Source: Candidatus Neomarinimicrobiota bacterium
Lineage (GTDB): Bacteria > Fidelibacterota > UBA2242 > B5-G15
Direction of reading: 5' to 3'
DNA: 64,000 nt
Assembly (NCBI GenBank): GCA_017656425.1
Contig: JACDNV010000001.1
Span: forward strand, 266,132-330,131
Under the pieces are notes generated by a model. That model saw nothing but the letters and a program-made list of their open reading frames with translations, was not told the DNA's origin and searched no databases. This document shows, piece by piece, positions 1,135 through 2,508 of the stretch; position 1 is the stretch's first letter; every line of letters starts with the position of its first letter. A program made the position numbers and the translations under genes.

Positions 1135-2004
1135 TTAATATATAACTTTATTCAAAGGATACTCGATAATGTCGGTAGCTCCGTAGTCTTTCAATTGTGG
1201 TATAATTTCTCTAACAACTTTCTCATCTACAATCACTTCAAGAGCTACCCAATCTTTATCAAGTAAAGGAGATATAGTTGGTTCTTTCATTGCAGGTACA
1301 AATTTCTTTATTTCCTCAACTTTATCTTTTCGGATATTGAATTTTAATCCTACTTTTTCCTTTGCCCTTATTGCCCCCTGTAATAGAAGAGCTATGTTAT
1401 CAATTTTCCTTTTTTTCTTTTTATCCATATATGATTCTTTATTAGCAATAAACCTCGTAGTAGATTCAAGGACTGTATCGATTATTCTCAAATTGTTAGC
1501 TCTTAAGGACGATCCAGTTTCTGTCAATTCGACAATAGCATCTACCAATCTTGGGGCTTTCACTTCTGTTGCCCCCCATGAGAATTCTACCTCGGCTTTT
1601 ACACCCTTTTTCTCCAGATATCTCTTTGTAAGATTTACCGCTTCTGTAGCAATTCTTTTGCCATTTAAATCATATACAGACTGAATCGGTGAATCATTCG
1701 GCACAGCAAGCACCCATTTAACAGGAGAGAAACTGCTTTTGGCATATACAAGTTCACATACCTCAACTACATCAGCCCCAGATTCAATTATCCAATCGAG
1801 ACCTGTTAGACCTGCATCAAGAACATTTTTCTCAACGTACTTAGCCATCTCCTGAGCTCTTACAAGTATTGCCTCTATCTCATTATCATCACATACAGGG
1901 AAATAGCTTCTAGCACTTACACGAAACCTAAAACCTGCCAGCCTGAATAATTCAAATGTGCTTTCTTGCAAACTACCTTTTGGCAAACCAAGTCTTAATA
2001 TCAT
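1135..2004 (-). CDS. hisG: ATP phosphoribosyltransferase, long form
   Basis: HisG condenses ATP with PRPP, the first and feedback-regulated step of histidine synthesis. The protein begins [17 protein letters not shown] and has the HisG signature around [25 protein letters not shown]-binding type segment reads [24 protein letters not shown]-terminal part of about 75 residues (near [20 protein letters not shown] to the end) matches the ACT-like regulatory domain of long-form HisG, so a separate HisZ is not expected. I chose the ATG at 2004 because it has GGAGG nine bases upstream and gives the usual length of about 290 residues. The open frame extends further upstream to a TTG at 2106, but that extension only reads through the attenuator hairpins. 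hisD follows after ten bases. Confidence 0.95.
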
Positions 2005-2039
2005 AATTATTGTTCCTCCATTTTTTTCTTTCATTGGAA

Positions 2040-2139
2040 TTGAGGACACGGGATAAAAAACCCGGGTCCTCAACTCCCTCACCTGAGAACCCGGGTCTTC
2101 TCTCAAATTAAAAACATCACCCGGAAATTCTCTCAGGTG
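2040..2139 (-). promoter_or_regulatory. Histidine operon transcription attenuator (four-strand leader)
   Basis: On the minus-strand RNA four segments can pair in two exclusive ways. Strand A (2139-2131, CACCTGAGA) is perfectly complementary over 9 bp to part of strand B (2088-2080). Strand B (2096-2084) pairs over 13 bp, with one G-U, with strand C (2072-2060), and this hairpin is followed directly by a run of six U (2060-2055), making a standard intrinsic terminator. Strand C (2073-2061) also pairs over 12 bp with one mismatch with strand D (2052-2040). So A:B plus C:D prevents termination, whereas B:C terminates. The ACCCGGGT core and the TGAG motif recur in the strands. The overlap of A with the His-rich leader frame gives the logic of histidine control. 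Confidence 0.78.
2060..2096 (-). terminator. Attenuator terminator hairpin ahead of hisG
   Basis: A 13-bp stem (2096-2084 with 2072-2060; core ACCCGGGT, one G-U pair) and an 11-base loop are followed on the minus strand by UUUUUU at 2060-2055. It lies 51 bases before the hisG start, so it can only act as a conditional terminator inside the leader. Confidence 0.8.
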
Positions 2140-2179
2140 GGCATTTTAAATGGTAATGTCGATGATATACTAACTTCAT
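2117..2179 (-). CDS. Putative histidine leader peptide
   Basis: This is a 20-codon open frame on the minus strand, ATG at 2179 and TGA at 2117-2119, reading [20 protein letters not shown]. Three of five consecutive codons (2164-2150) are histidine CAT, in the order His-Arg-His-Tyr-His. The frame overlaps the first antiterminator strand of the hisG leader. A ribosome stalled on the His codons would leave that strand free, while one that reaches the stop codon would cover it, which is the geometry expected for attenuation. I see no strong Shine-Dalgarno site in front of the ATG, which is the main weakness. The call rests on position, His-codon density and the matching RNA structures. Confidence 0.72.
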
Positions 2180-2508
2180 AAAAAATATCAATCAAATCTC
2201 AATACGATTTAAATATGCCTTAAAATTTTTAATCTTTCAATGAAATATTTTCCACAAAAAACATCTTAAATTTTTATTGCTTTTACAAAAACAAATTAAA
2301 AAACAAGCCTAATTACATTAAACTTTGCAACTTTGCATTCTTTTATATATATTATAACTGATATTTGATCAATTACAAAATTTTGTGACTTAAATCAAGC
2401 GGCAAAAGTTTTTAATCCCAAAAAGTGATAGAAAACATATTAAAATAAATAAATAAAGTATAAACTTTTATCGGCTGAAAAGTAAAGTGTAATTGAAAAA
2501 CCGAAAAG

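Follow-up and report, generated by a model that had tools for sequence, protein, structure and literature searches.

An element on the minus strand (2179-2036), lying 5' of hisG and the histidine (his) operon of an uncultured Neomarinimicrobiota (Marinimicrobia) bacterium, is very probably a ribosome-mediated transcription attenuator of that operon. It was analysed within a window of 64,000 nucleotides, by which we mean the whole stretch of DNA under study, and compared with the hisG upstream regions of relatives. The element combines the sequence features that define this class of regulator: a conserved leader peptide with His codons, an intrinsic terminator and an alternative antiterminator that overlaps the end of the leader (Table 1). 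The mechanism is almost certainly of a known kind, his attenuation. What stands out is its spread across a phylum and, in one small clade, an additional helix (C:D).

The leader, antiterminator and terminator

Table 1. Features of the his leader and its surroundings; positions are those of the window.
Feature	Position	Strand	Remarks
Candidate sigma-70-type promoter TTGAAA-17-CATATT	2212..2240	(-)	consensus scan; weak, 9/12
Leader peptide frame, 20 codons	2117..2179	(-)	ATG 2179, stop TGA 2119-2117; sequence and translation
Strand A, first block CACCTGAGA	2131..2139	(-)	pairs with TCTCAGGTG (2088-2080), 9 bp core
Strand A, second block CCGGGT	2119..2124	(-)	overlaps the leader stop codon; pairs with ACCCGG (2096-2091)
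Strand B ACCCGGGTTCTCAGGTG	2080..2096	(-)	common to antiterminator and terminator
Strand C GAGGACCCGGGT	2060..2071	(-)	3' arm of the terminator; pairs with ACCCGGGTTCTC (2096-2085)
Six-T tract of the intrinsic terminator	2055..2060	(-)	sequence
Strand D CCCGTGTCCTCAATTCC	2036..2052	(-)	partner of C plus its 5' flank (2077-2061) once read-through has occurred
Shine-Dalgarno-like GGAGG of hisG	2015..2019	(-)	predicted to pair with D when B holds C
hisG	1135..2004	(-)	long form (C-terminal regulatory domain present); opens the his operon; PF01634, PF08029, TIGR00070, TIGR03455

Downstream of hisG, the operon continues on one strand with hisD, hisC, a HAD-like frame, hisB, hisH and hisA, as read from translated frames (with a family-library test for hisG and hisD); hisD lies next to hisG, inside the window. 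The HAD-like frame between hisC and hisB in the operon of the window's genome (298 residues; L146:2005-2901) is, judged by eye, perhaps a histidinol-phosphatase, because HisB is short here. On the 5' side, the neighbour of the attenuator is a divergent transglycosylase gene, so the hairpins terminate no other transcript. A bidirectional terminator was rejected, as the plus-strand side has no T tract and no gene enters from there. The leader region occurs once in the window's genome, which excludes a repeat or mobile element. Within the region, the consensus scan returned 8 promoter-like sites, compared with 2.7 +/- 1.9 in shuffled sequences; since shuffles also yield such sites, the promoter call is suggestive only.

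The His codons of the leader are its codons 6, 8 and 10 (2164-2162, 2158-2156 and 2152-2150), which form the run His-Arg-His-Tyr-His. They account for 3/20 codons, a share exceeded in most relatives, and the frame in the window has no clear ribosome-binding site. In many relatives (e.g. L005, L024, L025, L029 and L031) a -10-like box was seen ~8-12 bases 5' of the leader start codon, and in such relatives a leaderless RNA may serve as the template for the leader peptide. Across relatives, the spacing associated with a leaderless start was overall not above the null.

Folding of the whole leader gave an energy z-score of -6.2, with an equally stable structure in 0/200 shuffles. The A:B duplex was calculated at -30.3 kcal/mol (z -5.6), and CCCACCTGAG of strand A is retained in the sister genus (G001). 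The B:C terminator spans 12-14 bp at -26.4 kcal/mol (z -5.7), and the A:B and B:C helices are mutually exclusive. When the last His codon occupies the A site, the ribosome would cover 2167-2138 and nearly all of strand A would stay free, whereas a ribosome at the leader stop would cover 2134-2105, including the whole second block of A. An earlier note on this DNA had described a 20-codon His leader, a 9-bp A:B helix, a 13-bp B:C terminator, six U and a C:D helix, with the His codons placed such that a stalled ribosome frees A and a ribosome at the stop covers it. All of these elements are found in the minus-strand sequence and the placement holds; the listing omitted the second A block (CCGGGT with ACCCGG), and strand D runs four bases past the range given there, to 2036.

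From this arrangement we infer ribosome stalling, termination and a response to histidine at the leader. Under scarcity of histidyl-tRNA, the ribosome would stall at the His codons (2164-2150) and leave strand A exposed; A would pair with B once B is made, C would stay unpaired and RNA polymerase would continue into hisG. With ample histidine, the ribosome would reach the stop codon (2119-2117) and mask A, upon which B:C would form and transcription would stop at the U tract (2060-2055). At the U tract, equilibrium folding favours B:C over A:B for any ribosome position (-42.0 versus -36.1 kcal/mol in the window). The antiterminator must consequently act kinetically, forming before C is made.

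A structured 5' leader ahead of an amino-acid operon would also be expected of riboswitches that bind tRNA, such as T-boxes, or other ligands. Against this, no Rfam family other than those of tRNA genes reached threshold in the window or in the loci of ten relatives, no match to the T-box model was obtained, and a relaxed Rfam scan of the leader returned chance matches only. We consider the probability of a riboswitch to be close to nil.

Conservation across the phylum

To place the attenuator in its wider context, hisG upstream regions were collected from 64 Neomarinimicrobiota loci, several of which come from one genus, so that the loci are not independent. As controls we used 62 hisG loci from outside the phylum, including Planctomycetota, Lentisphaerae, Omnitrophota and Campylobacterota; their HisG proteins share ~55-65% identity with the query. 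Among named relatives, the nearest is the Candidatus Neomarinimicrobiota MAG QNCQ01000248.1, our G001, with a HisG identity of 85%.

The loci were screened by a script whose criteria were a short frame holding three or more His within seven residues and, 3' of it, a hairpin with a T tract. It detected a His-clustered leader with a terminator in 51/64 loci of the phylum and in 0/62 controls. Eight loci missed by the script for reasons of orientation or threshold (L011, L018, L020, L036, L044, L046, L047 and L141) were clear by eye. This raises the number of loci with a His leader and an intrinsic terminator to 59/64, against 0/62 controls, which argues that the attenuator is not a product of chance; as this inspection by eye covered loci of the phylum only, the strict comparison is 51/64 versus 0/62.

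These counts also bear on another explanation, in which a factor-independent hairpin simply ends an upstream transcript or stabilises the mRNA, the His frame arose by chance and no leader is translated. The absence of a clear ribosome-binding site and the presence of three His codons only would fit such a hairpin in the window. However, His-rich frames are found at this position again and again across the phylum but are absent from the controls, and with a divergent 5' gene there is nothing to terminate, which makes this explanation highly improbable.

The antiterminator was assessed in 52 leader units by pairing the 5' arm of the terminator with the segment that begins at the last His codon and ends 12 bases beyond the stop. 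Complementarity exceeded that of dinucleotide shuffles (p <= 0.05) in 28/52 units, including the window, where ~3 were expected (mean z -2.1). In many relatives the paired block sits at the stop codon and would be masked by a ribosome that terminates there. In several families A:B complementarity was not significant by this simple duplex test, and the antiterminator there may be placed differently. A comparison of hisG upstream regions among relatives had been proposed by the earlier note as a check on the attenuator, and both its leader with terminator and its A:B complementarity are borne out by these results. Judged by the upstream sequences, hisG is usually under attenuation control in the phylum, and the window is no singular case.

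Further elements were observed in individual genomes. L026 (G002, same order) carries tandem units from ~340 to 80 bases 5' of hisG, with the leaders MKRNLTHWHHHHSNYRLM and MKNNTNNHHIHHHGHWISG, each followed by its own terminator. A selenocysteine tRNA gene lies near hisG at L024:461-549. In L182 (G028), a frame containing NYWFWWRY precedes a strong hairpin and a T tract 5' of trpE; from its sequence, this upstream element is likely a trp attenuator. In the window's genome, no leader with a terminator was found in the upstream regions of thrA/hom, ilvB, trpE and pheA.

The leader peptide is missing from 5/64 loci, three of which (L012, L016 and L021) belong to one family and show HisR-type features. 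Directly 5' of hisG, these three loci have a gene of the TrpR family (YerC/YecD, HisR-like; family test for L021) and a palindrome, CACTTTAC-GTAAAGTG, that matches the published HisR consensus. The HisR-like gene and the palindrome replace the leader, as expected if HisR and the attenuator are alternative controls. In L008 (G004), repeated AACAAGGATTGAAAC motifs resembling CRISPR repeats were seen 5' of hisG, where the leader would be.

A helix downstream of the terminator

In the window, strand C can form a second helix with strand D, which consists of 12 + 4 bp: GGAGTTGAGGAC (2077-2066) pairs with GTCCTCAATTCC (2047-2036) and CGGG (2064-2061) with CCCG (2052-2049). The C:D energy is -27.6 kcal/mol (z -6.4). 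When C was paired with the downstream region as a whole, the energy was -28.9 kcal/mol for the window and -27.4 kcal/mol for G001, both beyond those of shuffles. A comparable arm was absent from the 50 other units tested, the next best being G028 (-18.7, p 0.25); a few weak pairings of C with downstream sequence (p 0.01-0.02) are as expected from 50 tests. C:D as a phylum-wide feature was accordingly rejected, the arm being seen solely in the two-genus family of the window, of which the genome sets searched contained no further members.

Between the window and the sister genus, the region from B to D is 84% identical, while the leader frame has diverged over much of its length. The C:D pairs are mostly unchanged in this comparison of two sequences, with one G-U in place of an A-U, which amounts to conservation with little covariation.

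The earlier note had taken C:D for an added antiterminator arm that locks up the 3' strand of the terminator. Strand C is indeed common to C:D and B:C, and once D exists, C:D shifts the balance towards A:B by about 12 kcal/mol. Yet D, being situated 3' of the U tract, is not yet transcribed when intrinsic termination is decided, and the arm is missing outside the two-genus family, whereas the terminator is present in all relatives. An antiterminator role for C:D is therefore very unlikely. Since D is transcribed later than the U tract, the helix cannot influence termination there and can act on read-through RNA only.

In that RNA, the combination of A:B and C:D is the best fold once D exists, by 12 kcal/mol in the window and by 19 kcal/mol in G001. 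In the window's genus and its sister, read-through RNA would fold C with D, so that the A:B form becomes the stable one; on energetic grounds, C:D is predicted to lock it in that form. Our best guess at its role is that C:D most likely fixes or stabilises the 5' end of the read-through RNA.

A more elaborate role for the arm would be dual control, with a relay from A through B, C and D to the Shine-Dalgarno (SD) sequence that passes the decision of the leader ribosome on to hisG translation, such that RNA escaping the terminator would still be controlled by histidine. We regard such a relay as unlikely, and the same holds for its proposed detail, a scheme in which A:B with C:D leaves the SD open, while B:C lets D pair with the SD and keeps leaky read-through silent. 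Folding of the window agrees with the scheme: with A:B and C:D formed, the SD core is largely accessible (probability of being unpaired about 0.75-0.9), compared with about 0.02 when B:C is forced, D then being its partner, and with a ribosome at the stop the full-length RNA favours B:C with D:SD (0.91). However, D:SD pairing was no stronger than with shuffled D (p 0.63 and 0.88). In G001, closure of the SD is partial and involves other partners, and C:D remains the preferred helix even when a ribosome sits at the stop, from which it follows that the D:SD coupling is not conserved. D was thus rejected as an anti-SD arm, its pairing being predicted in the window but no better than in shuffles and absent from G001. 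An alternately sequestered SD that is conserved in relatives, the mark of a dual transcription/translation attenuator, was not found. The reading of the leader as a transcription attenuator, with C:D forming after read-through, is the one we retain.

Relation to known systems and significance

Ribosome-mediated his attenuation has been described in Proteobacteria, and the E. coli his leader contains seven His codons in a row. The enterobacterial hisL (Rfam RF00514 His_leader) likewise consists of a His-codon leader, alternative antiterminator and terminator and a U tract, with hisG as the first gene. The window differs in its three interspersed His codons, the location of the antiterminator strand at the leader stop and the extra C:D helix after the U tract. 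No covariance-model match to RF00514 was found at the gathering score in the window, in the relaxed scan of the leader or in the loci of ten relatives.

Outside the Proteobacteria, attenuators with His leaders of three to five His codons have been proposed for the Bacillus cereus group, Peptostreptococcaceae and Erysipelotrichales (PMC9413887). These Firmicutes leaders likewise have a terminator and antiterminator before his genes; they belong to another phylum, and an arm after the terminator is not described in the text consulted. In Flavobacteriaceae, a conserved structured element that is absent from Rfam precedes hisG, and clues to leader-peptide attenuation have been found before amino-acid operons (PMC9723704). 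The element is known from the transcriptome and structure in Flavobacterium psychrophilum (PMC9723704) and is likened to ours by description, not by sequence. The earlier note had implied that his attenuation is rare outside Proteobacteria; similar leaders in some Firmicutes (PMC9413887), the structured element before hisG in Flavobacteriaceae (PMC9723704) and the usual presence of such leaders in this phylum speak against that view. The type IX secretion of the lineage, to which that note also referred, is irrelevant to the mechanism.

A search of the open-access literature found no paper on attenuation or a leader peptide in Marinimicrobia, although an earlier mention elsewhere is possible. 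His attenuation thus appears to be how a large uncultured phylum usually controls hisG, in a form that is not in Rfam and has no description in the open-access literature searched. The some 59 leaders provide a set from which an RNA model can be built. With one family that has a HisR-type repressor gene instead and one genome with tandem attenuators, the exchange of one control for another should be traceable on the tree. The C:D arm, in turn, raises a testable question, namely what purpose is served by a helix that would form only after read-through.
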